Shown one piece after another: positions 11,071 to 37,793 of a stretch of DNA of 64,000 nucleotides. The stretch is from the NCBI GenBank assembly GCA_950295325.1, contig OX485809.1, forward strand, positions 39,215,081 through 39,279,080, read 5' to 3'. The position numbers and the translations under genes are program-made. The notes beneath the pieces are model-generated. The model searched no databases, was not told the origin of the DNA, and saw nothing but the letters and a program-made list of their open reading frames with translations. The stretch comes from Polytrichum commune. Lineage: Eukaryota > Streptophyta > Polytrichopsida > Polytrichales > Polytrichaceae. Position 1 is the stretch's first letter; each line of letters opens with the position of its first letter.

Positions 11071-13941
11071 ATGGCCGCATCAGTGGCGACTGATCCCAGC
11101 GAGATTGTGGTCCCCCAGGGCCCTTTTGGGGGTCCATGCGGAGTTGATGCTTTCTACGATGGAGTGGGTGACATTGTGCAATCACGGTAACCTATTAATT
11201 CCGACCTAGTCGTCTATTCCGTGCAGACCACCTACCAGCAAGGAGTCGCAAAATTCATGACCGATCAACACGGGAAATGCGGGCCAAGCACTTTCACGGT
11301 AGGTAAGGTAGAGGGGCCCTTTCCCGCTCGAATTTCAGATTGGCATGTTCATTGGGGAGTTATTAAGGGGGAATCAATCTTGAAAGATGTGCAAAGTACA
11401 TTGGAAATTGGACCAATTGGAATAATTAATTTTGGATTAATATTGAATTAGTTATGAATTTTGGAAGGAGAACTCATAGGGGTACCCAAAACCACTCACC
11501 CCAAAAATGTACACCATGATTACATAGAAATTTGAGGTTGGAAGCTATAATGTACCTCTTGTTTGGATAGGTCTAGTGAGCAGTTTAAGGACCCAAGCGG
11601 GAAAGGGCCCCTCTACCTTAGTTACACCTCTACAGATATAAACTTGCAGACATTATCAACTTTTGATTTTCCTCATCATCTTCGTCGATCTTGCTCACAA
11701 GTCAGACTGTTCAGCTTGTAATGCCATGAGCGGGGGTGCACCTAATACCTACTTAGAGAAGACCCAGGTTCATGAAGCTAGCTGAGTACTTGGTTCAAGT
11801 TTATATTACTATACAATCATTTCCTGCTGGATCAATTAACGAAGCCAGATGTTTTTTTTATTTCACATTTTATTTCAAATTTATTTGAGTACAACACCAA
11901 CCGTGGTTGCAACTTTCCCTGCTTGCGCACCTAAGTAGGTTGTATCGTCGAAGTACGTAATTAGCTGCTAATCGACAATGCCACCAATGGATCTCCCTTG
12001 ACATCCGGCAATCAAATTCTAGCCTACTTTCGAAATGCAATGTCATTGTGATTTTTCCAATTCACACAAGAGGGTACTGAATTAAGCTTCTTTTATAACG
12101 TCGCGTTTTAACTTTGAGCATGACGTACTGTTGTAACGGTAGATTACATTGGACTTCCCAGCGGAGTACCTGGTGCAAGTGAAAGGAGCGACCGCTCCTG
12201 CTTCCGGCCTGGCCTATGATGTCGTCACTTCGCTCTCCTTCATCACCAACGACAAGACCACCTACGGTCCCTTTGGAGCGGTGGAAGGCCGCCAATTCCA
12301 GAGCTCCCCACACAGCAAGGTGATGGGATTCTTTGGCAAGACTGGCAGATTACTGGACAGCATCGGCATTTTCACCGATTTTTTCGATCCATACAACAAC
12401 TTGTCAGCTGAGGGGCCATGGGGAGGTGCCGGAGGGGACATGTTCTACGACGGGAGAGCCGACAAGATCGTGGCAATCGATGTGGAGCATGAGTATGCCA
12501 TCATCTCTCTCAACGTGAAATACGCTCAGGGCAATCAGGGCTTTTTGTCCACTAAAGATGGTGGCGGCGGAACAGTCAAAGGTGTCGTTGATAAGGTAAC
12601 ATAACTTAATAATCCTGTAAGTTGGTCATGTATGCGTGTGTAACATTCACAGCAGTCTCCTCGTTGGATTTGTACAGTAGCCTGCTTTGCTGACTAATTC
12701 ATCACAGGGCAAGTTATGTGCCAAGATTATAAAGTGCGACAACGGACTACAAATTACAGACGCAACACGGCCAAATGTTGGCCGCTTGCTGAACATGCCT
12801 GTGTGTCTAGTATTAAATCCATATTCTTGAGCGACTCGTGCAGATTGTATTCAAATCCGACAAATACCTGGTGCAAGTGACGGGAACTCAAGGCATAGCG
12901 TACGGCACGCTCACGCTGGTGACCTCGCTGACACTCATCAGCAACAAGAGAAGCTACAGGCCGTATGGCGATGTGTCTGGAACTAGGTTCCAGACGCTCC
13001 CGAACGCCCAGGTGTTGGGATTTTACGGGTGTTGCGGTTGGATGGTGGATCAGCTGGGCGCCTTCGTGGCACAGCCCTCACTACTGCTAGTCTTTGTGGG
13101 CGAGGCCTGGGGAGGAGGCGGAGGCTCTGCCTTCTACGAGGCCGTGGCGAGATCGGCCAAATCACGGTCGTGTACACCGGCGAATTCATTTGCAGGCTCC
13201 AGGTCACCTACCTCCAGGGCGGCGAGAGCTTTGAGGCTCCCACACATGGCACCGCACAAGGCCGAAATGTGGTGGTAGGTGTCTCACGAATATGATTAAC
13301 TCGGTACAAATTTTGCAACTAATCTGATAGCTGCTACATTCATACACAAATTGTTATATTTTGATGGTTGTCTCCTCAGTCATCTGTAGAGACCAATTTT
13401 GATTATGTTGAGTCAACCAGTGTGACATGTGTAGCTGCATATAATATGTCAATGTCGACATGGCTAAGTATGTCTGCGAACAAGGAGTCCCGATCAAGTC
13501 ATGTGCAGCCATGTCCACTTGTCGCACTTCGGGTTGGACCAACTAATAGTGTGCGATAATTTATCAATCGCCATGTGATTACCATCACGTATGATCTGAA
13601 ATTAGATAATCTGACATACAATAGATACTTTGTTTGACATGATGATTATATATCTCTGTTTCGCTCCACATGCAGATCAAGCTGAAGGCCGGTGAGTACG
13701 TGGTGCAAGTTCTGGGCACACACGGGCAAGGAGCACATGTGGCCGACTTGATTCAATTCCCCCAGTTCAATCCCTCTATGTCACCAACAAGAGGACCTAT
13801 GGGCCTTACGGCGACACTGTGGGAGGAGCCTCTTTTGCTTCGTCCACAGAGGGGCATGTTGTGGGCTTCTTCGGACGCTCTGGGGATCTTCTCAGCAAGC
13901 TGGGTACCATCGTGGCCCCAACCAACAACTTCCAGGCGTGA
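11071..13941 (+). pseudogene. Decayed gene for three tandem jacalin-like lectin domains
   Basis: Jacalin-related lectins are mannose- or galactose-binding beta-prism proteins; plant members are often cytosolic or vacuolar and stress related. Four exons can be traced, all in phase 0: 11071-11298, 12143-12595, 12844-13274 and 13676-13941. Each of the inner exons holds the second half of one domain (EYLVQVKG, YGPFG, GFFGKTG) followed by the first half of the next (GPWGGAGG, FYDG), so introns cut each domain at the same point. Exon 1 gives GPFGGPCG...FYDG and then an in-frame TAA at 11188-11190, after which homology continues (VQTTYQQG). Exon 3 lacks one G near 13140, shifting the frame after SAFYE. 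Exon 4 is also off by one near 13755-13770 before resuming VTNKRTYGPYG and stopping at 13939. Exon 2 alone is clean. With three lesions the locus is probably non-functional, though exon 2 could be part of a shorter product. Confidence 0.8.
11302..11622. repeat. Inverted repeat in lectin intron 1, possible MITE
   Basis: Arms at 11302-11328 and 11596-11622 are near-perfect reverse complements (GTAGAGGGGCCCTTTCCCGC). The left arm abuts the predicted 5' splice site of lectin exon 1 (GTAGGT at 11299), so the insertion may have supplied or damaged that site. The interior carries no gene. Confidence 0.6.
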
Positions 13942-17174: not shown

Positions 17175-17203
17175 AACACTATATTCGTTAATCGGAGACT
17201 TTT
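17175..17203 (+). repeat. Left terminal inverted repeat of the giant transposon
   Basis: Begins AACACTATATTCG directly after TAAG and continues to GGAGACTTTT. It is followed by a small hairpin, GAGACTTTTGAAAGTCTC (about 17194-17211), which recurs in slightly altered form at the 42570 end. Confidence 0.85.
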
Positions 17204-17580
17204 GAAAGTCTCAAAATAAAATATGCCCATGGTTTGGGATGCCAATATTGTGGGCATACGGAATATTGGAAACATCAAGAACATGACGATTTGAAATTTC
17301 GCACGTAAAGCATATTCTTATTACTAAAAATAGAGAATTTCAATTAAAATGAAAATGTGAGCTCTTTGTGGAAAATAACAATCAACTCTGAAAAAACAAT
17401 TGGTTTATGTCATTATAGAATTTGGGGTGCGCATCCCATAAGTAAGGCTCTTATGAATTTGGATGGCACATCCCAAACGTATACAACAATGGAGTGTGAC
17501 AAGTCCACTAAGTCTAATAAAAACCAAGTCTACTAAGCGCCCATGTTTTTCGCCATTAACTCCCACCTAATATGTTATGT
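17204..17580. promoter_or_regulatory. Left subterminal region with repeated GGGATGTGC-like motif
   Basis: Between the left terminus and the candidate transposase stop codon, variants of GTGCGCATCCCA / GGCACATCCCAAAC recur on both strands (around 17247, 17430 and 17463). The same motif recurs next to the related end at 42570 (around 42625, 42890 and 42920). Clustered subterminal motifs of this type are the usual binding sites of transposon-encoded proteins; that role is inferred. Confidence 0.5.
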
Positions 17581-20500
17581 TTACACATCTCCATCTTCCG
17601 CTTCATATCCATTCTCGGCGTCATTCACCGCAGCTGCAATACGTGCCAAGTTGTCTTTGGCAAAATCTATATGTTTTTGGGGGATGGTCATTGTTTCTGT
17701 TTTGGAACCTTTGCGCGGCTTCCAAGCACAAAGTATAGTATCCGTGTTTATCCAAACCGGTGTGTACGCTGAGTCCACTGTCCACTTAAAATTCTTTTTG
17801 GTGTCCCAACCTAAATAAGTGCGTAGCACGTTTTGGTCTTTAGTGCTTGGACGACAATATTCCACCTCAATTTGACGAAAGTTGGGGCTAGTTCGAACAA
17901 AATTGGGTGAAGACAATGCTTTCACCAACCAAATTGGCTTGGGATGCTCCTCATCCCCTGCTCGTACGAGGACCAAATAACCTTCATGGCAATCAACACC
18001 TACACGAAACGACGGTGCCGGTCGATCTCGGGCAGGGCCAACGTAATGCTCGTCCATTGCGAACTCTTCACGAACGTCTCCATTGCTAAAAAACATGGTG
18101 TCGGACTCGACAACCGTTAAACGGCTTTGTGGCCAAAATCCTTGTGTTAAAGTTGTACGGGTGTCGCCACCAAGTGTCATTAGGGCCGAGCGAATGCGAT
18201 CCCAATACGCAATCAAAGGTTCATGAGTATCTCTAACACGTCTAGTGATGTCCTCCTCACACAACTCTTTCCAATATTCAATGAATCCGGATATGCCTTT
18301 GATGATTTCCGGCCCATTCCTCATGGGGTCGGGTTTGCAAGGCTTTGGATCCCCATCCGGGAGCAAACATTTCCCATCATTGTCTTGACGCCATACGAGT
18401 ATACCATCATCCGGGCCCCAATTAGGAGATGTGCACAAAAGCTTAAATTGCATGGCCGGGAGACCATCATCCCTTATAAAGAATCGGAATTGTTGTGCTT
18501 TGGTATGTCCCACCAAACAGTCCCCTCCCTTCAACATGTATGGCTTGATGAAGGCCTTGAAATCTGGTACTTCCTCAATCATGTGCGGAATTACCGGCAT
18601 ATGGTCCAAATCCATATACGATTTCATAAGAAGTGGTATGGTTGGAAAATCTTCTTCATGCAACTTCATGCTCCACCGTCCGAAAGACGCATCAATGTCA
18701 TCGTGTGTGTGTCCCACCATCAAGAAAGACACAAACACCTCCTTGAAGATTCCTTTCGCCACAAGCAAGGACCAAAAACAAAATACATATCGACATTTGT
18801 TGTCCTTCGCACAATTATCAAGTTGAACGTGGAGAGTTGGAGGCAAAGGTTTCGTACAAAGAGGTTCTCCGGGTGGCTCCGGCAATGACGACATACAAAC
18901 CTCCTTCCCCGCAAGCAGTGCTTCGTAAAGGGGTGTCGTTCCACAACCATCAAACAATGCACGTGATGAATGTACCGGTGGCTTCTCAAGATTGCGCAAG
19001 AGTTTTGCAAATGATCCCACCGTGTGGTTAGCATCGCCAGGGTAAAAATCCAGACCATAATGGGCATACTTAACGTCTCCATGTCCGTGGGCAATCATCC
19101 CTGGGAAAAAACAAACGATCCATGAATGACAACAATAACAACAACAACCCTAAACGGATGTGTGAAGTTGAAACCTAACGCAAACACATCTAGTAAAATT
19201 GGATAGAATTTGAACACATATTTGTGATTTCCTACAAACCTGTGACAGCTACGGGCAACTTGAAGAGTCCATCCGTGGCCTTTATTTTCCGTGCATAACA
19301 AGGGCATGCGGTCTTGGCGTGGTCCATTTTGTCATGGATGATTGTTAGAACCTCTGTAGGCCTCATTATGGATAGAGCACGGTTCTTGTAGTAATCTTGA
19401 CGGTGAGCCTCTTGGTTGTTGACATGTTCAATATATTTTGCTTGGTGTCTGGAGTGGGATTCGGTGCCTATGGGGTGGGCGTCTCGAAGACCTTTGTATT
19501 TTTCACACGTCGTACACCTAGCGAATTTGTCCCCATGTCTCTTCAAAATGTATTCAGCAAACTGTTGGTTTTTAATTACATTCAACTTGGACAAAGAAAT
19601 GGGACCACATCCCGCTATGCGACCCACTTCGTTAATGTCCGTTAATATGTTTTTCCATTTTGTACCTGTGGGCAACACCATTTGTACAACTTTCTCCCCT
19701 GACGACAATGTCCTCGTCTTGTGGGGCATTGCATCGGCCAATGGGACTATGATGGTGGAGAGTGTCGCGGAGGCTTGGAGTGTAGCCTCCCGAGGTTTCT
19801 TTGTGCCCGAATTTCCATGAAATCGTGAGCGGCGACCCAACGATGAATACTTTTGAAACCTATAAAAGTCAGCCTTTGACACGGCATGGATGGTATACCA
19901 CGCGGTACAACACACATCCACATTCTCAAGTGTGACCACCTTATGCCCATGGGTGTCAATGTGCACATTTCTATGGACCTCGAGTTTCTTTGCCGATCTC
20001 ATACGGAAATCGGCCAGCCACATCTCTTGACGTAGGGACTTAATTTTCTCCCGTGGGAAAAACTGGCAACATTTCCGATAGCAACAGTCTTTGGCGGACA
20101 CAAGACGGATAGATTCGTCTCCCAATATGCGATCCCGTCGACGCTCCTTATCTCCTCGAGGCACACGGTTCGAATCATATTTGCGTAGGCCTTTGCGAGG
20201 ACGTATTTTGGCCAACAAAGCTAATTGTGTTTGCTTATGACGCCGCTCATGGTCCAACAAGCTCACTCCGTCATGAAGAACCCGACAAAAAGGCCATCGA
20301 CGCAAGGAAAATCTCCATGTCACCGGGACCTCAAGTGGAAGCAATGAATTCAAGATACACACACCAACATCGTTCGGACCAAGGGGGTTGGCATCCACAC
20401 AATCACGGGGATCAGAGTTTCTACATATGCCATCTGCCACAGGGACACCAATGTCGTTGAGTAGGACGACATCAAGGCCAACCCATTGCTCCCTCCCGAA

Positions 20501-20716
20501 ACCAACACACAACGGAATGTCATCGTGGTCATCCCTGGAATGTAGAGATTGTTCGTGCACTTCTAAAGATTCATGGGAGGATGTATCCACAAACTCCCCC
20601 ATCACGTTTGGCAGACCATTACAACCCGCCGAAGGGGAAGAAAGTTCACACTCACCATCGAAGGAGGAAGAAATTGGGGACAACTCCAATGAACTATATG
20701 CCACGGGCAGCGCCAT
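17581..20716 (-). CDS. Two-exon DUF7869-like candidate transposase, intact
   Basis: Exon 1 runs 20716-19240 and exon 2 19100-17581; the 139-bp intron has GT (19239) and CCCAG (19101), and joining keeps the frame, giving about 998 residues. The first ATG is at 20716, just inside an upstream in-frame TGA. Residues 1-180 look disordered and acidic. A cysteine cluster (KDCCYRKCCQFF, about residue 225) and a second set (CTTCEKYKG, CPCYARK) may bind zinc. Three conserved acidic sites suggest an RNase H-like DDE/D core: KMDHAK (D about 465), VQLDNCAKDN (D about 587) and HTHDDIDASF (about 626-629). The QLDN...GHTHDDID pair is what I recognise as the DUF7869 pattern found in plant and other eukaryotic repeat proteins. 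Its place beside a terminal inverted repeat, and broken copies at 43184 and 46650, support a transposase. Catalysis itself is inferred. Confidence 0.75.
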
Positions 20717-22390
20717 CCAACCTAAGCAAACCACTAATCAATGACCAAAACAAGAAGCACCGCAATGCACACAAAAGCGAAAACGAGAGCTGTGTAGATA
20801 TATGGCTAAAAAAACACAAACAACTCTCGCAGCACCGTTGGGGGACCTCACATATGAAGACGAACGTGCGTTCGAAAACAACGCCATGACAAGCAAATAC
20901 TACGTGGGAGTCACACACCAATGGACAACGGCATGCAATTGTGGTACATATTAACCGTGAAGGGTTTTGGGTCGATTTGCTAATAAAACATGGGAAGTGT
21001 TGCCAACCAACAAAGGAGAGCATACGCACATATATTCACGAACGCGCGGACGAGAACATCAACCCAACAAACAATGAATTGTAAAAGGGATAAGCAACGT
21101 GCATTGCTCAGGAGCACCTAAAATGCACCTGCATCATTATCCACATGCAACAAGCATCGTAATTGAAGGGCATGTCTTTGACGGGTGTGTATCTAGGAAC
21201 GACCGAACCCAAGGTAGAGCCTAAACTCAAGGGTGTATGTATACGAACGATCGTTCGTAAGTCCTGGCCGAAACATATGGGCGTATGCATACGAACGATC
21301 AATCATGTGTTCTAGCCCTAACCGTGTTTGTAAAAATGTTGACCCATCAGAAGAAACATCTATAGCGTAGTAGTAGGAGGCATGTGCATAAATGAACGGA
21401 TGTTTCTGTATAATTGCAAAATAATATCAATTGATATTTATGAACGTACGTTCGTGAATACCAGACCATCATATGTTCAGTTGGACATAACAGAGTCACG
21501 GGAGCGTAGGTGTCTTTGAGGGTTAGGAGGAAAATAAACGAATGCACGTTCGTATATCATTGAACATTTTAGCGCCCACGACTACCTATAAGTAGGTCAA
21601 CGTGGAGTATTATCGAATGCTCTACTTACGAACGCACGTTCGTAAACCACTCGCATTACACGAACTTACATGCGCCTATATCTCCAAGAAAATATATAAC
21701 GCACGTTCGTATATAATTGAACATTTTCGTGCCTATGACTACCTGTAAGTAAATCTACGCTGAGTATGTCCAATGCTCTACTTACGAACGCACGTTCGTA
21801 AACCACTCGCATCACAACAACTTACGTGCACCTGTATCTGGAAAGAAATATATACGAACGCACGTTCGTATATAATTGAACATTTTCATGCCTATGACTA
21901 CCTGTAAGTAAATCTACGCTGAGTATGTCCAATGCTCTACTTACGAACGCACGTTCGTAAACCACTCGCATCACAACAACTTACGTGCGCCTGTATTTGG
22001 AAGGAAATATATACGAACGCACGTTCGTATATAATTGAATATTTTGTGCCTGTGACTACCTGTAAGTAAATCTACGCTGAGTATGTCTAATGCTCTACTT
22101 ACGAACGCACGTTTGTAAACCACTCGCATCACAACAACTTACGTGCGCCTATATCTGGAAGGAAATATATACGAACGCACGTTCGTATATAATTGAACAT
22201 TTTGTGCCTATGACTAGCTGTAAGTAAATCTACGCTGAGTATGTCTAATGCTCTACTTACGAACGCACGTTCGTAAACCACTCGCATCACATGTCTGAAC
22301 CATTCGTCTATACCACTCGTCTAAACTACATGTCTAAACCACTCGCATCACATGTCGCTACCAAGTCATCTTTACGAACGTGCGTTCGTA
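20717..22390. promoter_or_regulatory. Divergent intergenic region rich in palindromes
   Basis: This region lies upstream of the minus-strand transposase and far upstream of the plus-strand gene. It holds about 13 copies of the ACGAACGNNCGTTCGT palindrome, the first at 20860 about 145 bases from the transposase ATG and the last at 22374. Degenerate half-sites occur near 21040, 21195 and 21287. No reading frame here looks coding. Operator-like or anti-silencing control of the transposase promoter is a reasonable inference. Confidence 0.55.
21620..22290 (+). repeat. Tandem array, five units of about 157 bp, each with two palindromes
   Basis: Units begin with CTCTACTTACGAACG at 21620, 21776, 21935, 22094 and 22251, so the period is 156-159. 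Each full unit contains one palindrome in a CTTA...TAAACC context and one in a TATA...TATATAATTG context, about 70 bases apart. Alternation of the two contexts shows that the unit was amplified as a block. Confidence 0.9.
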
Positions 22391-24779
22391 AAAGTCCGGT
22401 ATTTGCGGCGGTATATGCGGGTATGTGCAACCTATTGTGTACCTGGGAGGTATAGGGTGGGCGCACAAGAAAATGGTTTGCGCTCGTTCCAGTTAGGTCT
22501 GTGGAGCGCACACTTGGTTGTGCCGCAGAAAAGAGCTCTGATGTGGGGGGAAGAGCTTTAAGTACCTCCCCCCTGATGGTTCAAAATCCCTTGGATGCTA
22601 TTTAAAAAGCGGATTCCCGCCGCCTACTTTGACCTAACAATATGCCATTCCATCCATGCGGAATAAATAAATAGCATTATGTATGGAACATGTCTTGCAT
22701 GCACGCAACATATTGTAAATATGTCAATCGGTCGCACACCTTAGTTGTCACCAAGGTCTCACGTGAATATATATCTATATTTATATGTATATATGAATTT
22801 CATATTGTATATTATATTATATTATATTATATATACACATATATATAATATTAGATTTATAATGTCTATATAGGTTTATGGTTAACATTGAATTTAAATG
22901 ATTTGCAACTAAGGTGTGAAGTCCAAGTTAATTGACGATTGATTATACCTAATAAAGTGATGAAGGGTTTAGGGTAATACATATTCACACACACAATGAG
23001 GTAAGAGTAGCTAAAAACATGTTGTGGAAGCCCCTAAAATTGTAGGTATCACATGATTCACATAAAAAAAATGCCCGTAATATGGTCACCAACTGCATGA
23101 ATACCAATAAAAAGTCGCTTAATCCATAATGGTTTGTACTAGGTAAATTGAGGACATTTTGAAGTAATCATACCCAATATATGTAGGTAAGGTCTTCATT
23201 CAAATGTAACACTAGGTTTGAAAATAATGAATTAAAATGGCATGATTGGAAATGATCAATCACTTTGGAACGGTGCATACGATAATGATAAGAATTGAAA
23301 CCATGCCTACGTGAAGTCATACTTACAATTATTAATATCATGTGTTTGACGTCCTATGAGAAATAGAATTTCCTCCACCTTTTGTAAAGGTTTAGGATAG
23401 CGCAGGCTCGCCACAATATGAAATTGAGTCCTTTATCCAATAATTTTTTTTTAAGGAACCATTGAACACCTTGAAAGACATATTGTCCATGAAAAATTTA
23501 TATTTTAAAACACCATATACACATGCTTGCGGGTGGATTTTTCATTTGAATCCACCCCCTACACTTGAGGCTCGCCAAACATCGGACCATATTATGAACT
23601 ACAAGTTTAAATGCAATTGATCATTGGTGAAATTTAAAGTTGATGGCACTAGTATTCGTTTGTTAGTTCAAGTCGACAACTAATTAAATGACTTGACCTC
23701 CTAAGAAGGGTTGGTAAGATAAAAAGATGTAGGGTTAGGGTTTAGGGTTTGGGGTTTGGGGTTTGGGGTTTGGGGTTAGTGTATATGGTTTGTGAAAGTT
23801 GTCTAATATGTGGTTTGCGGGCTTAGGGTTTAGATCGTTAGTGATACTTAGGACGGGTTTAGACTTGGAGTCAAGGCTCAAAAATGGGTTGGGGTGAAAG
23901 AAATCCACGCCTCTCATTGGTAGAAAGGCTAGGATTTTCTTCTTCAAGTTTACACCATGAGTTGGGGCCAATCACAAATAAATTATTTTATTCATCATGA
24001 CAATGGCCTCAAGCCTTGGAAAAGAGAGCTCCCAACATTGTGGACTCTTTCCCTCTTGTTGAGGCCATTGTTAGAGCTTTTATTCGCTTATAGTAGTTTA
24101 TTCTTTGAGCATTGAGTAGGAGGGGAGAAATTCTAAATTTATTATACTTTAATTATTATCCATAGAATAGTTCATGAGTACGTTGGAACCTCTCATAACC
24201 CTCTCATAATTGCAACCTCCAAATGGCCCCAACCCCACCTAAATAGGTTTACACATGAAAGCAATGAATGGAGTTAGGTTACTTTCTTATTAATGGCCTT
24301 TGGGGCCCATTTGCATGCCACATGGGACATATTGGCCTTCGTTCACAATGGCCTTGGCCCCAAGTCTAAACAGGCCCTTAGTGTACTATGCGTTCGTATT
24401 TAGAGTATCTAATACTAAATATCATATTAAGGGTGGGTCAAGCTAACACCTCATGAAATTAATGACATCGTATTGAAAAATGAATTTTCCCCCACCTCTT
24501 GAGGAGAATCTGATAGCCCCTCTCCATAATTCAAAATGCGTCCTTTATGTATGTAAAATTTGTTTGAGGAACCATTGAACAACTTTAAGGATGTGTGGTT
24601 CATGAAAACTCTATTTTGCAAAACACCATACACACATTGGGGTGGATTCTTCATCGAAAACCTACTAAATGACATGCATTGTGTTGTACAAATTAACTGA
24701 ACATACTTTTCTAAAATATGTTTACAAGGAATCCAACTGTAGAGGTATTCAGGGGATACGGAATGTAAAATTCATGTCC
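22391..24779. other. Palindrome-free AT-rich spacer within the giant transposon
   Basis: No gene was found. The stretch holds an AT dinucleotide run near 22760-22860, a telomere-like run of TTTAGGG/TTTGGGG units at about 23731-23776, and a direct duplication described separately. The abrupt lack of palindromes here suggests sequence added later or under different constraint. Confidence 0.45.
23370..24660 (+). repeat. Direct duplication of about 180 bp within the spacer
   Basis: The segments 23370-23550 and 24480-24660 are diverged direct copies. They share a CTCCACCT...start, GAGGAACCATTGAACA-like text, a CATGAAAA block, and AACACCATA(T/C)ACACAT...GGGTGGATT. Between them lie about 930 bases with no coding sequence. 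They could be the remains of an older insertion, but no TG...CA ends were evident. Confidence 0.5.
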
Positions 24780-26551
24780 CCGAACTAAGCTCCCACCATT
24801 TCGTATTTCTTAATTCGTAAACCCTCATCCCTCCCTATCCCCATTCCCCTCCCATCCATCCCCATCCCCATTCCCTCCCCATCCCCTCCCCTCCCCCATC
24901 CCCATCCCCATCCGCATCCCCATCCCCTCCCCCATCCCAGCCCTGGCCAATGGCTGTCAGCCACGTGGCAGCCGCCAGGAAACCCTAGCGGTGCCGGCTA
25001 CCTCCCCGCGCCTCTTCCTCTCCTCCTCATTTGTCATTTGGAGCAGAGGAGGAGGGGAGAGCTTAGGTGCGGCGAAGCCCTGGCCATTTGTATAGCCGCA
25101 TTTTATGTTTATTCTTGGCGCGTATTGTCAGAAGCTTGAGAGTAGGATCGCTTGAGAGGTTGATATTTGTAGAAATCTTGAGAAGGTTGAGAGTTTTGGA
25201 AAGCTTGAGAGGTTTAGAGTTTTGGAAAGCTTGAGAGGTTTAGAGTTTTGGAAAGCTTGAGAGGTTTAGAGTTTTAGAAAGCTTGAGAGGTTGAGTGTTT
25301 TAGAAAGCTTGAGAGTTTTAGAAAGCTTGAGAGTTTTAGAAAGCTTGAGAGGTTGAGTGTTGCAAAAAGCTTGAGAGCTTGAGAGTTTCAGAAAGCTTGT
25401 GAGTTGTGTTTACATCAGAATATTTGTAGGATTTGTAAATAAATTCTGAAGGCTTGAGAGTGTGAGAAAGGAGCGAGGGTAGAAATTGCATTTGAAAGCG
25501 AAATCAGTGCATTTGTCAGGTTTCTGGATTTCTGAGTAGCAGGCAGCAGGTTTTGGGTTTGCAACAATTCAATGTGAGTACAGGTTTCCTTTTCAAAACA
25601 CTTCTTTGCAATCTGAAATTGTTCTTTGTTGAATTCCATGTGTCATGTTTTATGCATTATGAGCTTTGTCATGTTTTGTATGAATTAGGACTTTCCCCTT
25701 CATTATGAATTCTTAATCACTGAATCTCAATGTTGTTGTCATTACATATTTCACTTTGTGTTTCATCATTCTGATCAAGAGTTGCAGGCAGAAATCCAAG
25801 CAATGTCGATAGCAACATTCATAAACCCATACATACGTATACGTATATGTACGGAAAGCATTTATTATCATACACAGACGACCACATTTACGAACGATCG
25901 TTCGTAAATGTGGCGTTTATACATCTAATACACCAAGCCCTTTACTTTTACGAACGCACGTTCGTAAAATACGCACTCACCTTCTACTTTTACGAACGTG
26001 CGTTCGTAAAATACCCACTCACCTTCTACCTTTACGAACGTGCGTTCGTAAAATACCCACTCACCTTCTAATTTTCCGAACGTGCGTTCGTAATTGATTA
26101 AATAAGGAACATCTTGTATTTGCGAACGTCCGTTCGTGAACAAACACTGAATCACATCAATATCCTAGATTTACGAACGATCGTTCGTAACCAGGGATCC
26201 AAACACACCCAAGATTTGCGAACGCGCGTTCGTAAATCTACACAAAGGCATGGACACAAATATGTGTACCCAAAAACTAATAAAAATGAGCCCAAAAAAT
26301 GAAAATAAAAACGAACCCTACACCTTTTGATTACTCCATATGAACATCACAACACTCAAATACGACCGCGCGTTCGTATTTATTGAAAATGAATAACACC
26401 TTGGAAATCAAACCAAATTTGCGAACGAACGTTCGTAAACAAGAACCAACAGATGTCTTGCCAATAATAAATAATTTATTGATGACCTGCAAATGCCAGT
26501 AACGAACGCGCGTTCGTAAATGCAATTCTGAATGTGTCTGTTACATTGCAG
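24780..26551 (+). promoter_or_regulatory. Promoter, 5' leader and palindrome-rich leader intron of the large gene
   Basis: A CT-rich tract of CCCCATCC units (about 24830-24935) precedes GC-richer sequence to 25080. A purine-rich leader of repeated CTTGAGAGGTTTAGAGTTTT units follows. A plausible splice donor GTGAGTACAG is at about 25574, and the acceptor TTACATTGCAG at 26541-26551 sits directly before the ATG. Eleven palindromes fall in this putative leader intron (25890-26518), eight of them spaced 42-60 bases apart. Transcript data are needed to fix the start site. Confidence 0.5.
25160..25400 (+). repeat. Short tandem repeats in the leader, GCTTGAGAGGTTTAGAGTTTTGGAAA type
   Basis: About nine degenerate units of 17-27 bases, each containing AAGCTTGAGAG. 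They lie in the putative 5' leader of the large gene. Confidence 0.75.
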
Positions 26552-29500
26552 ATGGCTAGACCAATCAGGAGCGCAATCGAAATGTTCGCGGTTCAGTTGG
26601 ATCGGCTTCCGGAGTCAGTGACAGATGACAATGGGAACGATAATTACGTCCCCAAAGATGACTTCATGGGGGAGTGGACGGCGCTCCCGGAGAAAATCGA
26701 GGGCGGATTGTTCGCCTTGAGATTCACATACGAGTTGGAGACAAGGCCAGACCAGCCGGAGCAGTGGGTGCAGATGAAGACATGGGAGATAGAATCCATA
26801 GAGGCACAGGGTGATTTTGTTATCTTGGATTTGAAAAACAAAAAAGACCACATCAACCTCCTGCTGGACTTCAGGAGGCACCCTTTCTCCCATACATACG
26901 CACAGAATAATGTTGTAGAGGATGCCAAGCATTTCGACCTCGTGAACCTTTTCACGAAGTACAGCCTCAGCCAGCATTGGACAGCCAGGAAGTTGACTGC
27001 ACTGGCCCTAAATATGTCCAAGTATAACAGTGCCGTCGTGGAGGCCAACAAGAAGAAGAAGAGTCCCAAAAAACCTACTGCATCCGGAGCAGGAGGTTCT
27101 AGAAGTGCGCCGCGGCCAGTGCCTTCAGCTAGCAGATTGTCAGAGGGGCCAAGCAGACACTCCACGCCATCTAAAAGAACTCGGGACGATATGGAGAAGT
27201 CTAGTGTCACGGAGACAGCTGAGGTCAACTTGCCGCCTGTCATGCCGACCCCTTTGAAGAAGGGGGAAAATCCTGATGCGGCAAAGGCGACTCGTATCCT
27301 TCGCGACTTCAACAATTACTCGAAGGATTGCTGGCCCATGGGACGGCACTTCACCTTCAACGTGGACTGCTTCAAATGCGAGAAATCCCCCAACAAGTGG
27401 GTGGTGAGGTCACGTGAAAGCGGAGGTGTGAAGTGGCAAATCAACAACTTGATGAATAACGTGAAGTGGGATAGGCAAACTGTGTGCGTTATGCCAAAGG
27501 GTTTCACTTCCCGTCCCACGGAGAAAGATTGGGCAAGAATCCAGAATGGGGAGTTCTGGATTATTGATGGACAGTACAGCCTGGAGGCATCGCAGATCAT
27601 CCTCAAGGATGATAACTTCCAGCATGAGCTGAAGGGGGACCTGCGCTACTGGAAGGCGTTCCTGGTGTGGTCAGACGACTGGGACAAACTCCGGAAAATT
27701 TCGACATTTTTAAATTATGGGAATAAGATCAAAGCGTTTGAGGCATCATGGGCAGTAAACATAGTGGCTGCGAGAGACGTGTGGGTGGCACACGGGTGCC
27801 CACCAAAGGAGAGGGAGAATGCGAAAAACCAGTCTCCACAATGGAAGGTAAGTTTACGAACGAGCGTTCGTAATTCTCAGGTTCCTTTAGAACATTCCTG
27901 ATCATTTTATTTACGAACGTGCGTTCGTATTTGATTGACCGATGACATTCCTTTCTAATGCAGGCGTTTTGCGATGCGATGGTGGACAAATTCTCTTCCA
28001 TCGACATGAAGTCCACTTCAACGAAGTCAGTGCTTGAGCTGAAGGGTGAGCTCCGGCTTATTTGTTGCAACAGAGACACCTGGGATTTGTGGACCCAATT
28101 TTTTGATGCTCACAGTGCGGGGGATCTCGTCAACCCCGACACTGAAGAAAAATATAATCAGGAGAAGACTGGGGAAGTGCCTCTGCTGCTGAGGGAATTT
28201 TTTAGGCCGCTTCAGGGGTTGACGGAGTCGGAATTGCAGAGATGTGCAGTTCATGCTCTTGGGAACACCGTCGGGAGAACAATCCCCTACCCGAAGATTT
28301 TTTTGAAGAGGCCAAAGCACAGGCCCGGAACGTACTCCATCAAGGAGTGGTGCAAACATCGCAAGTTGAAGACCAACGCAATGAGGGAGTTGGGCGCACT
28401 AGTCCCGGAGTACAAACTCTTCCAGGCCGACGGGGACATCAACTGGGCTGGATGGAAGGAGTTCAAGGTCGGGTATAACATCAACGGCTCTTCCATGCGT
28501 AGGCTAGTTAAGGAACACGCCTCCGTCTTGAAGCTGAAGGGGAACAAGCGGACCAAGAAAGCAGAGACAGATCCCCAGGAGGTGGAGTTGTATATAAAGT
28601 TTTTGGAGAGGAAGCGGAGGGCCACATTCGAGGGAGTGGCCAGGTTTTGTTTGGTAACCACCGGGCTGGAGAGGACCACTTTTTCTAAGTGGGACGGCAC
28701 CATCAGCAGGGCCAAGGTGAGGGAGGACCGCAGGGGTTGCCCATTTGCCCTGATTGATTTCAGGGGGATCCCAGGAGGTGCGAGGCAAGGGGCAAAGGAT
28801 TTTCCCTTCTACAACCCTTTCATGGCAAAGTTTCAAGACTACAGATCGCCTGAAATGAGGGAGCCTCACGTATGGCTTTGGATAGTGGAACATGAGAAGC
28901 TATCCATTGTCACTGAGCTGTACGAAAATACCATCAAATTTGAATACAGCATCTACCACAGCACCTACGTGCCCGCAAAAACGGAAGGGATCGTGGCCAT
29001 CAACGAGGCCAGGGGCAACAAGCAGGTGGGAGCTGTCAGCTTGATCTTCTTAATGTACAATGCTCTCAGAAATGGGAGAGCGCCTGTGAAGGCAAACAGT
29101 ACTTTCAAGAAGATATACAGCATCCCTCACCCCCCTCCCAAGGAACTGTTGCAGGAGACACTGTACACGGTTTTCCCCGCGTTGGAGCTCAGGTTGGAGT
29201 TCTACGTGTCAGTGTTGCAGAGTTTGGCAATCAGTGGAGAGACTGTCTACAACATCTTTGGAGGCAGCAAGTTCATGTACGCGGCCATGGTAAGCTGTCA
29301 TTCTTAGATTTACGAACGCTCGTTCGTAATTGTCATTGATTCAAATGTTATAATAGTTGTGGCATTTTTTCCCTTTGCGTTGATCTGGCCTTGTCTCAAT
29401 GTTGATGTTTACGAACGCACGTTCGTATATGCTGACATGTTTGGAACGTTGGTACAGATGCTGGGGTTGGTCGTCAATAACTACGTTGACGCCCAAGACG

Positions 29501-32266
29501 AGGATGAATACCAGGTCCACAGGGTGAAAACATCCACAATGGACCTCGATGACATGTGTGTCCCCAGGGAGGACTTCAGCATGCCCGTCGACGAAGGCAT
29601 GCCGGGCTTGGAGACAGACGAGGACGAGCCCGCCCCCTCCGTGGACGTGGACGCTATCTTGCAGTCGTTCAACATCACTCCTTTACGGATGTTGGCGCCA
29701 GCGGGTCACCCGTCTGACCCCCAAGGGACACCGGGGGGCTATACAGGATCCTCGGCTGGGACAACCCAGGATGTCCTCCCCGCTAGAGTGTCGGGTGCGG
29801 AACCCTTCGGCACACCTGGCGGCTGTTCGACGTCAGTGTCTCCCAGGCCCGTCGTGGTTCCGAGGATGGAGACCCTCGACCTCCTTGACCAACGCTCGCG
29901 TCCATCTTTGGACCACTTCCGGAACACGAGGAGGAGGATGAAGAAGACGCCATACGTGGAGTTGCCGGAGGGAGCAATCATCGAGGTGTCCGACGAGGAC
30001 GAAGGGGACATGGACATCATGGCGGAGCTGGGGGTGGATTACGACAAGAACAAGCGTGTGAAGGAGGAGGCGTTGACGGTTGCCGAGCTGAATGCCAAGC
30101 TAGAGCAAAAAATGAAGGAGGAAATGGTGGCTGCGGCAGAGGAGAGTGCAAGAAATATGGCCCGCATGCAGGAGGCGCTGCGGGAGTCCGCAGCAAAGAC
30201 GGACGCCATATTTGAGATGCTCAGAAATATGCAGAGCTTCTCGGCGCCAGCACAACAGCCTTACCCCTTCCCTGGAGGATACCCCTCCCATACCCCCCTT
30301 CCAGGCCTGTTCCCCGGAGGACCTTGGCACCCACCAGCACCACACCCAACGCCAGCTGGGAGTCCTCCGCCCCTTCAATTGACTGCCACCCCCTTCAACT
30401 CGGACGATGCGATAAGGGCTGCCATACGCGAGGACGAAGATTTACGAACGCGCGTTCGTGAATCTTCAGGTCCGGCAGTCCTAACCCCTCCCCCTCCAAG
30501 GGTAGGACTGGCCTCAGTCACTGCCACCGCCTCTTTGACAGTCGTCCCGAGGGTAGTGCATAGGCAGGGCGATGAATCTGCGCAACACACTGACATGGTC
30601 ATTGTGGAGGAAACGCAGGGGAGCCCCAATGACGCGGCAGCTGTCCAAGGAATGGACGTTGAGAGCCCTGACCTGGAACGGCATCCATCCGCGGAGATGG
30701 AGGATGTCCGCATGGACACTCTCGACCTGGGCGGAGATGACGACGACGACGACGCGGATCACATTGTGCAGACCCAGGCGTCACAGTCGGAGCGTGCCAC
30801 AGACGCCATGGAGACAGAGGCGGCTGGCCCAATGGGGATTACGAACGCGCGTTCGTTAATCGAAGAGGAGGGAACTGCTCGGTCCACCGCCGCTGCCCCT
30901 CCCCCCGATGACGAGGTAACTCTCCTCTGAGAATACCACTCATTTGACGAACGCGCGTTCGTAACCACTAACCCATGCGCGTTGTGTTCTTGGCGGTTCC
31001 TGTCCATCAGCATCACGAGGCGTGCGAGGACCCTTCTCTACGTGGACCCTTAGCCCGATAAATTTTGACCCTTAGCCCGAGAAATTTTGTAGAACACGGC
31101 ATGCATTTGCCATAGGAAACTGTGAAAAATTATCACGTGAGACAATTGTAAATATTCACCGAATTAATATATGAGCAGATGATCTCTGCGTCGCATCTCC
31201 CAAACTTATTATATCGTATCGCATCTTGTATTATGTATGTTCATGCGCATCATTACACTTTCACGCCCACTTTCACCCTCCTTCACGAACGAGCGTTCGT
31301 ACATGTGCTTCTATCCGCGCTCACGAACGAGCGTTCGTAAATGATGCGCCACCCCAGCCTTCATTCACGAACGCTCGTTCGCAAGTCTGCACTTGACCAC
31401 ATTCTCCTTGCACTATTTTCCTCGCATAATCGTCTTTTCCTCAATGCAATGTTGTTTATTGGATCATAGAATTAAACTAGTCGAGTTGTTAATCACAGGA
31501 TCCCCCGGAGACAGGTCGGAAACCCTCGACCAGTGGACGTCTTACCAGAAACAAACCGTTCGTCGTGTTCGACCTGAACGGGGTGTTGTGTCACACCGAA
31601 CACATCCACCGGGTCCCCACGCGTCCCTTCCGTCACCCCGACGAAAGGGACTACGACGGAGAGCTCGACACTCTCATTAACCGCAAGGCTGTCCGCGCCC
31701 GTCCCGGCCTGCGTGACTTCCTTCGAGAGGTGCTCGATGTAGCTCACGTCATTGTGTGGAGCTCCATGGTCATGGAGAACACCGAGCCAATCGTCGACTT
31801 CCTCTTCCGCGATCTTCCGAGCCCTTGCCTCATCCTCGGCCAAGAGGATTGCGATGAATTGCTCGACGAAAAGGGTCTGCCGGTTCCAAAGTTCGGCGGT
31901 CGTGGCGGAGGACAACAATTCCTCAAGGTCTTGAGGTCAAGACTGTGGCGGGGCATCCCCCGGTTGCAGGGGGTACCCCACGGGTGGTGGCCGACCCCCG
32001 AGAACACCGTCCTCGTCGACGACAGCCCCACCAAAAGCGTTTTGAACCCCCCGGGGAACGTCATCTTCCCCGCCACTTGGACCGGCGATAGGAACGACAC
32101 GTTTTTGGTCGATACGCTAGCGCCTTACCTTAGAAGGCTTGTTGTCCACGCCGGTAGCATACCATTTTTTGTTAGGTCCAACCCCATAGGCAATGTGGGT
32201 TTAAGCCCCCGTGATAATGTATTCAAGAGCATCATGAGGCTCGCCAAACTCAATAAATTGATTTGA
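26552..32266 (+). CDS. Four-exon giant-transposon gene: ParB-like, methyltransferase-like and FCP1-like HAD regions
   Basis: Exons 26552-27847, 27964-29289, 29458-30915 and 31499-32266 join in phase 0 across GT-AG introns, giving about 1615 residues. Residues 1-160 are unrecognised; a basic, probably nuclear-targeting segment (KKKKSPKK) follows near 165. Residues 258-400 contain FWIIDGQYSLEAS and ISTFLNYGN, resembling the DGQHR/ParB-Srx pattern. In exon 2, ALIDFRG (about 694), HVWLWIVEHEKL (about 735) and YNIFGGSKFMYAAMMLG (about 864, across the exon 2/3 join) match in order the motif IV-to-motif I layout of permuted beta-class amino-methyltransferases, but DFRG stands where DPPW/Y is expected. 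A coiled coil lies at about 1074-1134, then a Pro-rich stretch. The last exon is an FCP1-like HAD domain (FDLNGVL about 1385, LVDDSPTKS about 1533). If intron 3 is retained, translation stops at 30930. Domain calls before the HAD region are inferred. Confidence 0.7.
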
Positions 32267-32471
32267 AATGCCTCCATGTCTTTGCTTTGTATCAAGTGGT
32301 TCACATTTACTAATGCTTGCTTCGTTTTTGGATGTCTTTTGTTGTTGTGATTGTTGTTGTGATTGTTGTTGACCATAGTCTGCCCCCATATGCGACGCCC
32401 CTGTGGTCGACGGCCCTTCCCGTCCCCTCTCGCCACCTGCCTCCCCTTCCCGCGACGTCACGGACTTCCAA
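32267..32471 (+). other. Short spacer between the two plus-strand genes
   Basis: Contains a TTGTTGTTGTGA microsatellite (about 32335-32372). No promoter element is obvious, so the downstream small gene may use a promoter in this spacer or share a transcript with the large gene. Confidence 0.4.
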
Positions 32472-34354
32472 ATGCCATCCCTCTACCAGTTCTCGGCGGT
32501 CGACGCGGCCTCGGCCGTGGATTACTCCCGCGACGTCGGCATCGACGACGGCGTCGTCAACAACCCGCCCCCCGCACTTGTCGCCCGCGCCTACGCCCCG
32601 TCGCCCTCCCCCCTCTCCAAGGAGAAACGGACGCTCGTTCGTTTGGGGCACCTCTCGCCGTCTAAGGACGACGCCGTCGCTCGTCGCGGGCCGAGCCGGC
32701 GTCTCCGCATGGAAGGCCCCCGTTGCCACACCTCCCCCGCCGACTCCGTTCCTCCCCCCGCAACGTCCTCCGCCATCGTGGGCCCTCCACGCCTCGACTC
32801 CCCCCCGCCATCCAACAGTGCAATAGTTCCATCGGCTCTGGATGCTCCCGTCGACGCCCCCCTCGTTGTCGCAACCCTTGCTAGGTCCCTTAATAATCTT
32901 GCCAATTTTCAATTCTAGCAAAGGTTACGAGTCGCTAACCCTTCGCATTCCGCCATGCTAATGGATAGCTCCTCTTACCCCGGACCAATAGTTCATAGGA
33001 GGGAACCAACCCTCCTACTTTGCTTTCGGGACTCACCCCTTAATCGGTAACCCATTTCCCCAATGTGGACTTCCATCCATGGAAGTCCAATCCTATGTTG
33101 ATCATCGCGTTGCCGGAGCAACACTACAACAACCCGAACCATACTAGGCAACTATGGCCTCACAATAGGCCAAAGCCCATGGAGGCCTTGCCGTTCGGCC
33201 TCGGGTGGGTGAGGCCACACCACCTCACCCATATAAGCCTCTAGGACTCTACGCGGGGCCCCTACCCCACCGTCAACCAACCTCTTGTCTCTCTACCAAG
33301 AGTTGGGGCCAAGTGGACATTTTCCTTTAGCTGCTGGGCCTAGAACCCCCCAGCAGCTTCAGACCATCATAACTTCCTTGTATGATGTCTGATCATAACA
33401 ACCAACCACTCCATCTTCATCTACGCTTCACGTAGATGCCGATGGACTCCTCACTTGCCCCATTCGGGCAAGTGGTGAGGAAGTTATGCCTGTTTGAACC
33501 TTTGCAGTCCCGGGAATCACTCCCAGGCACTGCTGTACCAGGGCGCTGTCCCGGGACAGCGCCCCACTCAAATGGCCATAACTCCTAGCTCACACCTCCG
33601 ATTGAGGTGTTCTTGAGCTTTCTAGAATCACCACGCCATGAGCTACGCATAGCTCATGGCCTTACCCTTGTGCCTCCTAGTCTTCGTGGGTGGGAGGCGT
33701 TCCCAACGCCCGGGGCCCTCACCCACACTAGGATCACTTGGGCCCTGTCACCAACGGCGCCACAAGTCCTGGGTGTCACTCCGGGGTCCCCCTTGTGCCC
33801 ATGGTGTTTCGGGCACTCCTCATGGAGAGGTGCGCGACACTCGTTCCCACCGTTCCCCGCATGGACGTCCCCAAAGCCAAGGTGCCCTCCTCAACCCTAA
33901 ACCCCTTTCCCGCTTTTGCTTCCCTTGTCTTCCGTTTGCGTGCCGTTCTCTTTACGAGCGCCCATCCCAAACCGCCCTCATTATTGTCCCCACTCCATTC
34001 CTATTCTTATCTTCCTATGACGTTGTTTCGCAGGTGGCTACCCGCTCGCTTGGTGCCCGGCCCTCCTCCACGTCCTCCTTGGATAGGCACGCCCTCAGGG
34101 CCGCATCTTCCGAGTCCGATCGTTGTCTGGCCCTCCGGAGAAGCGCAAGACGTTCCCTTTCGCAAACACCCTCGCATTCTACTTATAATACCACCTCTTA
34201 CAATTCGGGAGCGCGTCCTGAAACATGCAAGAACGACACATATTCCTGTCCAGGCAACACACAAGGATACAGTCGTGGGCCTGAGATTTTTAGAGCCATG
34301 GAGGCCGCCAAAAAAAAGGACTTAGCCGCAAAAAAAAATAGTGGGTCGGACTAG
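32472..34354 (+). pseudogene. Small basic Pro/Ser/Arg-rich gene interrupted by a solo LTR
   Basis: I do not recognise the product. An ATG at 32472 opens a GC-rich frame (MPSLYQFSAVDAASAVDY) that runs to a solo LTR at 32867. Beyond the LTR and its 5-bp duplication the same frame resumes at 33845 (PTVPRMDVPKAK). A likely intron, GTGCCC at 33882 to TTTCGCAG at 34033, then leads in phase 0 to an exon ending at 34354 with a lysine-rich tail (AAKKKDLAAKKNSGSD) that looks nuclear. Without the LTR the product would be about 250 residues. The frame also holds a degenerate copy of the transposon palindrome at 32627, read as RTLVR. The gene lies last before the right end of the transposon. The insertion probably inactivates it in this copy; alternative exon structures are possible. 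Confidence 0.5.
32867..33839 (-). mobile_element. 973-bp solo LTR (TGTCGC...GCGACA), TSD CTCGT
   Basis: Perfect 5-bp repeats CTCGT (32862-32866 and 33840-33844) flank a segment starting TGTCGCAACCC and ending GGTGCGCGACA. A second copy in the opposite orientation occupies 47240-50894 and has ends of the same type. No internal retroelement sequence is present. The overlapping open frames here (33607-33839 region) are LTR sequence. The orientation given is relative to the copy at 47240 taken as plus. Confidence 0.88.
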
Positions 34355-34716
34355 TGTGACGTCTAGAAGCGTACTAGTGGGACGGACTCCCTAAATGGGC
34401 TTAGGTGTAGAACATATTTAAGTGCTTACTTTCTATGCTATTGCAAGTTACTCAAGACATTGATGGTATTTCCATTATAATTGTATTTCAATCCCAATTA
34501 ATTCATTCAACTTCCATTCATTCTTCGCATCTTCCCTTCCATTCATAACGAGTTGTCTTTCATACGCAACTATTTTCATGTATGCCTCACATTTTTGTTC
34601 ACTTCCATGCCTTTATGTATAATAATAGTAGCATACCATTATACATATGGGATTTTTAGTCGTCATTACTGGTCCAATTTTGAAATGTGCATCCTTATAT
34701 AGTCTCATAATCAACA
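34355..34716. other. Right subterminal region of the giant transposon
   Basis: AT-rich, no coding sequence. Apart from GTGCATCC near 34688, clear copies of the left subterminal motif are not evident, so the two subterminal regions appear asymmetric. Confidence 0.5.
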
Positions 34717-34745
34717 AAAAGTCTCCAAATACCGAATATAGTGTT
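34717..34745 (-). repeat. Right terminal inverted repeat of the giant transposon
   Basis: On the minus strand it reads AACACTATATTCG, GTATTT, then GGAGACTTTT. It ends at 34745 and is followed by the target repeat TAAG. Confidence 0.85.
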
Positions 34746-36442: not shown

Positions 36443-36696
36443 CCGTGTCACTGAGGCGCTGTGAATGAGCCTCTTGATTTCACGAGCATGGTGCATCCGG
36501 ACCGTTGATCCACCAAGGCCCATCCAAGGGTCTCAATGATCCTAGGTGGCGGGGGTGGGGGCGGTGCTTGCCACCAAGGCGGGGTGGGGACGTGAGCCTC
36601 ATGTCTTTTTTCGGGGAGGCCGGCTTTAGGGTGGTGTCGGGCCTAGTGGCTAGGCGGGCTCAGTGGGCTAGGCAGCTAGGTAGGCTAGGCCTACTT

Positions 36697-36835
36697 ACTA
36701 AATAACTAGTTGGTTGGTTACCCTTACTCTACTTACTAAATAACTAGTTGGTTGGTTACCCTTACTCTACTTACTAAATAACTAGTTGGTTGGTTACCCT
36801 TACTCTACTTACTAAATAACTAGTTGGTTACCCTT
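36697..36835 (+). repeat. 38-bp tandem repeat in the fold-back arm
   Basis: About 3.5 units of TACTTACTAAATAACTAG followed by TTGGTTGGTTACCCTTACTC. The opposite arm (37485-37545) has fewer units, so copy number changed after the arms formed. Confidence 0.85.
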
Positions 36836-37793
36836 ACTTGCTAAGTGGCAAGGGACGGCTAAGGCTGGGTCACTTCTTTTACATACTCACACATGAATTT
36901 ACAACTTCAAAGCAATGTGGGCACTTCCAACTTCCCCCCAACATTGTAAGGTTTAGGGTCTTAAACGGACATTTTCTTTTTTCATCCACTTGTACTAAGA
37001 TACTAGGATGCCCAACATGCAATTAGTGCGAGATGATTAGCACATCCAATTTGTGCCTGTCCAATAAGTATAGAAAATGGTTTCCTACACTTATTTATTG
37101 TGAGCATTTTCATTTCAAGTTTTCAAATACAAAAGTGATAATAGGCCTAAATGGCAACTCCTTGTCTCTTTATAAAATAAAGTAAATCCTCCCAATCGTG
37201 CCAAATGGGCTTAAATATAATCATGTTATACTTGAAGTACATAGTGTAATCACGGGCACAGGCACAAATTGGATGTGCTAATCATCTCGCACTAATTGCA
37301 TATTTGGCATCCTAGTATCTTAGTACAAGTGGATGAAAAAAGAAAATGTCCGTTTAAGACCCTAAACCTTACAATGTTGGGGGAAGTTAGAAGTGCCCAC
37401 ATTGCTTTGAAGTCGTAAATTCATGTGTGAGTACGTAAAAGAAGTGACCCAGCCTTAGCCGTCCTTTGCCACTTAGCAAGTAAGGGTAACCAACTAGTTA
37501 TTTAGTAAGTAGAGTAAGGGTAACCAACCAACTAGTTATTTAGTAAATAGGCCTAGCCCACCGAGCCCGCCTAACCACTAGGCCTGACACCACCCTAAAG
37601 CTGGCCTCCCCGAAAAAAGACATGAGGCTCACGGCCCCACCCCGCCTTGGTGGCAAGTACCACCCCCACCCCCGCCACCTAGGATGTCACCAAAAATTCC
37701 CCACCCATCGATTTCGTCCTAGCCCGAGTAGAAAAGTTAAATTGACACGTAGAAAATCCTCCCTCGGTAATTCAATGTATGATTCCAATATAC

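Follow-up and report, generated by a model that had tools for sequence, protein, structure and literature searches.

A dispersed, lineage-specific palindrome in a DNA transposon of Polytrichum commune and the element-encoded protein that may read it

The stretch analysed here, hereafter the window, comprises 64,000 nucleotides of the Polytrichum commune genome (assembly GCA_950295325.1, contig OX485809.1, positions 39,215,081 to 39,279,080) and contains a whole DNA transposon of 17,571 bp (17175-34745), through which a palindrome with a two-base spacer is scattered in dozens of copies. The element is bounded by terminal inverted repeats (AACACTATATTCG at 17175-17187 on the plus strand, CGAATATAGTGTT at 34733-34745 on the minus strand) and has the 4-bp target site duplication (TSD) TAAG on both sides. 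On the minus strand, a single unit holds a transposase-like open reading frame (ORF) with a DUF7869 domain (PF25273; 17581-19098, E 2e-38) and, upstream of it, an ORF without a Pfam family above threshold (19232-20734), DUF7869 being the sole family above the cut-off in the pair. Pfam assigns no function to DUF7869, and a literature search on this domain found no publication; we infer that the ORF encodes the transposase. It is present in many copies in the genome, 85 having been scored out of 1863 candidates, with 95-100% identity. At 30 loci with the transposase-like ORF, the left end is identical in 29 and has one difference in the other, and the flanks are of 29 different kinds, one being common to two loci. 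Four copies were read through to both termini; a 4-bp TSD (TAAG, CAAT and ATAA) flanks three of them and is absent from the fourth. CACTA/EnSpm elements, whose termini begin with CACTA, have a 3-bp TSD, unlike the element described here with its 4-bp TSD in three of four copies and its AACACTATATTCG termini.

On the plus strand, a gene of four exons, inferred from splice sites read in the sequence rather than from RNA, forms an open frame of 1615 codons (432 + 442 + 486 + 255) that is followed by TGA. Exon 1 (26552-27847, 432 residues) is predicted to form an N-terminal beta barrel and, at about residues 265-395, a ParB/Srx-like fold with the box DGQ[HY]S. Exon 2 (27964-29289, 442 residues) resembles beta-class amino-methyltransferases in the predicted model of its residues 221-442, exon 3 (29458-30915, 486 residues) is mostly of low complexity, and exon 4 (31499-32266, 255 residues) carries a NIF/FCP1-type phosphatase domain (PF03031) with the motif DLNGVL. 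The exons are separated by introns 1 (27848-27963), 2 (29290-29457) and 3 (30916-31498), and a further plus-strand ORF of 171 residues follows at 32403-32918.

The palindrome, TACGAACGNNCGTTCGTA, was matched 35 times with at most three mismatches, always within 20859-32643 and never in the remaining 46 kb, which bears out the original prediction of about 35 copies; 100 dinucleotide shuffles of the window gave a mean of 0.05 matches and a maximum of 1. Thirteen palindromes lie between the divergent genes, upstream of the minus-strand transposase-like ORFs, in a partly tandem array (20859-22390), and 11 lie directly upstream of the first ATG of the plus-strand gene (25889-26518). Inside this gene, two are located in intron 1 (27855-27872 and 27912-27929), two in intron 2 (29311-29328 and 29410-29427), two in exon 3 (30443-30460 and 30840-30857) and four in intron 3 (at 30946, 31284, 31322 and 31366). 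The last one, weak with its three mismatches, is found in the downstream ORF (32626-32643), and its 18 bases are present in identical form in three of five elements examined. The palindromes at 21627-22275 sit in a tandem block with a unit of about 158 bp and alternating spacings of 70 and 88-89, and hence some of the copies were made by simple copying. A short tandem repeat (about GAAAGCTTGAGAGGTT), spotted by reading, lies at 25130-25400, between the element's two arrays of sites.

Eighteen of the 35 palindromes in the window are exact. The original prediction had also held the central dinucleotide to be free; it does take nine values, but it is not wholly free, since G stands first in 2 and C stands second in 3 of 169 copies. 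These come from five elements, namely that of the window and four further copies of the same clade (clade A), which have 39, 30, 31 and 34 sites. Of the mismatches over the 169 clade A sites, 55 affect the outer base and 18 are CpG transitions, which leaves 30 of other kinds. Unlike these five elements, a cluster at C1:640646-646097 combines 33 exact A-type sites with many GG and some CC centres, and possibly represents a sub-lineage that prefers other spacers.

In the genome to which the window belongs (408 Mb in 64 contigs), the exact A motif occurs 4,680 times and the reversed pattern is absent, and with up to two mismatches the counts are 9,483 and 338, respectively. Confinement to one transposon, as first claimed, is therefore true within the window but not in the genome. 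For the 100 exact sites at the head of the listing, which all come from the initial 2.5 Mb of C1, a hand count places 98 in six clusters and leaves two isolated, the clusters being defined by position and not each checked for element genes. Given these figures and the absence of the motif from the other 46 kb, it does not appear to be equally frequent outside such elements. Seven IMG/VR contigs with one exact palindrome each were taken as chance matches, since no second copy with up to three mismatches was present in the stretch of contig scanned.

Conservation was compared over three diverged clade A copies, at arm positions 2-8 and 11-17 and with gaps set aside. Within introns 1 and 2, identity is found at 165 of 168 arm positions, as against 186 of 358 outside the motif and its 10-bp flanks, and the centre is identical at 18 of 24 positions; the copy C6_26M is identical to the window across both introns and is thus uninformative there. 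At the fourfold sites of exon 3, identity amounts to 23 of 24 in the two exonic palindromes and 316 of 563 elsewhere (Fisher p 3e-5, from three related and hence non-independent copies). Thus, the arms are not drifting as fast as their flanks, and the palindromes are conserved in place. The elements also look mosaic, because synonymous divergence (dS) is far lower in the transposase ORF than in exon 2 of C1_5.7M (0.18 vs. 1.14) and C2_3M (0.14 vs. 1.01), which suggests that the transposase half is younger. The corresponding values for C6_26M (0.009 and 0.10) and C1_63M (0.15 and 1.49) are affected by broken frames and are not relied on, and exon 1 dS is undefined in C1_5.7M, C1_63M and C2_3M.

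Two other clades of this element, B and C, carry words of their own. All three words share the 8-NN-8 design and a common CG-NN-CG middle, and differ outside it. The clade B word TACGGACG-NN-CGTCCGTA has 1,382 exact copies in the genome and the clade C word TTGGGTCG-NN-CGACCCAA has 10,011, with 0 for the reversed control of each. The B word was predicted from peptides before clade B DNA was seen, as metagenome relatives of exon 2 read through into the intron and their extra peptides are the palindrome translated in its three frames. Among exon 1/2 relatives of at least 66% identity (49 proteins), 32 A and no B peptides were found, among those of 42-58% identity (31 proteins) 10 B and no A peptides, and among those of at most 36% identity (3 proteins) neither A nor B, the reversed control giving 1 and 0; this tally leaves out 30 exon 3 relatives, and a third peptide form cannot separate A from B. 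When third and variant forms are counted, some palindrome peptide is present in 33 of the 49 clade A and 16 of the 31 clade B proteins. In the protein collection, relatives of exons 2, 3 and 1 number 54, 30 and 30, nearly all of them on single short contigs, which are presumably stray eukaryotic contigs in metagenomes.

At the level of DNA, TACGGACG-NN-CGTCCGTA is the sole recurrent exact palindrome at 12 clade B loci of the genome (19 copies in 10 of them), and 19 copies of TTGGGTCG-NN-CGACCCAA are present at one clade C locus, whose exons 1 and 2 show 35-37% identity. No exact foreign-clade motif was found in five A elements, one B element together with 11 further B loci, and one C locus. 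The whole clade B element (16,273 bp, TSD ATAA) has the same terminal repeats, and the clade C transposase ORF was found at its predicted place with the same left end AACACTATATTCG; the terminal repeat is thus identical between A and B at both ends, and between A and C at the left end. From A to B, identity is 85.5% in the transposase ORF, 81% in the upstream ORF, 61% in the NIF part, 53% in exon 2, 40-51% in two pieces of exon 1 and 32% in exon 3, and from A to C it is 54.5% over 277 residues of the transposase ORF and 31-37% in the exons. The terminal repeat is kept while the word differs, and exons 1-3 are the most divergent parts, which together point, short of proof, to the exon 1-3 protein as the reader of the palindrome. 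In addition, dimeric recognition draws support from clade B, where both arms have switched symmetrically, and from clade C, whose palindrome is a third one of like design.

The 1615-residue protein appears from its models to combine a ParB-like fold with, less surely, an amino-methyltransferase-like fold lacking DPPY, and to end in a NIF domain. The ParB N-terminal-like fold is present in the predicted model of exon 1, and no Pfam family was found in exons 1 and 2. For exon 4, PF03031 scores 55.7 bits against a curated cut-off of 21.8 (E 5.9e-15). The NIF/FCP1 phosphatase motif is DxDx(T/V), and its second Asp is not present in the window copy or the clade B copy, both of which read DLNGVL. 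Both predicted folds, ParB-like and methyltransferase-like, occur among known DNA-acting proteins, which we count in favour of a DNA-binding role.

In the interpretation that we favour, each transposon lineage would encode a sequence-specific DNA-binding protein, the 1615-residue product of exons 1-4, which would bind, as a dimer, the 16-18 bp palindrome scattered in the promoters and introns of its own lineage. The protein would thus act on its own copies only, most likely keeping their transcription on or shielding them from silencing by the host. That this protein binds the palindromes is, judging from the sequence comparisons, very probable; that it is, as a whole, a dimeric self-recognition factor keeping its own copies active or unsilenced is a claim that we consider probable on balance. 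Several points weigh against it. Arm identity in the leader is 81-82% compared with 50-52% for the rest, a lower arm conservation than in the introns, and alignment can be pulled toward the motif and so favour it there, the short introns pinned by splice sites being less prone to this effect. The link between word and protein is not exclusive, since the whole element diverges between clades, the transposase too, though to a lesser degree. No palindrome peptide is present in 16 of the 49 clade A and 15 of the 31 clade B proteins, the genome has 118 hybrid sites that pair an A arm with a B arm, three sites of the clade B element carry TACGGCCG on one side, and the clade C DNA amounts to 6.8 kb of one locus, with the right end and the NIF part outside it. 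The ParB CTPase family has a conserved Arg in its GxxRxxA box, and in the register inferred from the fold this residue is replaced by Ser in 25 of 27 rows, by Thr in one and by a gap in one. In the exon 2 alignment, 39 of 40 rows have DFR at the position expected for DPPY. Of the five exon 2 models, three have a mean pLDDT below 60, and no match of the predicted models reached E 0.001 in Foldseek. Neither a ParB nor a methyltransferase relationship was found by hmmscan with Pfam and NCBIfam, and hmmsearch against PDB sequences found no sequence support for either fold. With hhalign against eight methyltransferases (one from E. coli and seven from phages, one phage entry being a partial CDS), the probability was 0.4%, the best local match lying on the SAM motif.

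Other explanations of the palindromes have to be weighed against the same evidence. They may serve as accessory sites of transposition, at which an element protein binds and so draws the two termini to each other, a function that TNPA has for Spm, and their many copies per element and their element specificity would suit this function. However, the nearest palindrome is 3.7 kb from the left terminus and 2.1 kb from the right, the sites are conserved in place within introns, and the motif changes while the terminal repeat stays, so that we regard this role as unlikely. It is a little less likely still that the protein is an active methyltransferase which puts 6mA or 4mC on its own palindromes as a permissive mark, as the methyltransferase-like part has GG[ST]K at the place of the expected GSGT, in addition to the replacement of DPPY by DFR. 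We give equally little credence to the palindromes being binding sites of a host factor, retained because they are useful to the element. The element protein is at present a candidate reader, which leaves room for such a factor, but the genome contains three motifs side by side, every one of them restricted to a single element clade in the copies examined, and an element-encoded reader fits this pattern better.

The original prediction had proposed dimeric recognition or RNA hairpins rather than simple copying. RNA hairpins or splicing elements could account for introns 1 and 2 each holding at least two sites in five aligned elements, and a 10-bp stem (-9.7 kcal/mol) is possible in the RNA of an extended site. 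Nevertheless, 24 of the 35 sites lie upstream of coding units, though part of that stretch may be transcribed, and paired changes that keep complementarity number seven in clade A, all at the outermost position, versus 89 other changed cells. Clade A thus keeps base identity and not pairing, which makes the hairpin half of that proposal very improbable, while its dimeric half is strengthened by the symmetric switch between clades. Plain copying, by tandem duplication or insertion of a small repeat, has evidently contributed to the tandem block at 21627-22275, and copy number varies between elements. As an explanation of the whole set it is hardly credible, as the arms of introns 1 and 2 persist amid sequence whose identity has fallen to about one half, and the centres differ among copies.

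The nearest known system to the favoured dimeric self-recognition factor appears to be VANC/VANDAL of Arabidopsis, an anti-silencing system; the proposed mechanism would work like VANC and be built from apparently unrelated parts. According to the published accounts, a protein encoded by the element binds a short motif with a high density in introns and noncoding regions of that family, the motifs differ between related families, and arrays expand through tandem repeats (PMC5735166, PMC10398659). These accounts describe MuDR-type elements with arrays in which the 9-bp motif YAGTATTAY keeps a single orientation (PMC5735166, PMC10398659). As in VANDAL, the motif described here is densely spread over noncoding sequence of its family, and the examined copies of related families lack it. 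By contrast, it is a 16-18 bp palindrome with a 2-bp spacer and has conserved exonic copies, the element has a DUF7869 ORF instead of a MuDR-type transposase, and the protein is made up of ParB-like, methyltransferase-like and NIF parts. For VANC, binding and loss of methylation are reported as demonstrated, whereas the present system is known from sequence alone.

Bacterial-type partition offers a second comparison, and parS sites are palindromic. Fusions of the ParB fold to N6_N4 methyltransferases are reported from phages (PMC12704722), and the order of a ParB-like and then an amino-methyltransferase-like fold is likewise predicted here. The differences are that the host of the gene is a eukaryotic DNA transposon, that its sites come by the dozen, that Ser replaces the box Arg, that DPPY is missing and that a NIF domain is added. 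It is conceivable from the models, though rather doubtful, that the elements carry a ParB-parS-like system in which a protein derived from a phage-type ParB-methyltransferase fusion would load at dispersed palindromes as an element-wide clamp, its specificity having switched at least twice among lineages in one genome. Some fungal DNA transposons are reported to carry TET/JBP dioxygenases (PMC12730594), and would resemble the present element in being DNA transposons with a gene aimed at epigenetic control; they differ in that recognition here would rely on a dispersed palindrome, and no dioxygenase family was found in seven pieces scanned with Pfam. A literature search for transposon proteins that bind palindromes found none, and among the papers listed by further searches no title or opening of an abstract describes such an element, a result that is only as strong as these searches.

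Elsewhere in the window, a minus-strand ORF of 2,079 residues at 54850-61089 is by eye like the polyprotein of a Gypsy-type LTR retrotransposon, and exons at 12149-13290 are by eye like a jacalin-like lectin gene with repeated domains. A long inverted repeat spotted by reading at 36570-37700 is possibly a foldback element.

If the dimeric self-recognition reading is true, these elements would represent a second origin of lineage-specific self-recognition in transposons, from other parts than those of VANC. At least three motifs with thousands of exact sites in one genome would then constitute a natural data set for studying how a protein and its site change together, and the same data set would bear on how transposons remain separate from the genes of their host and from one another.
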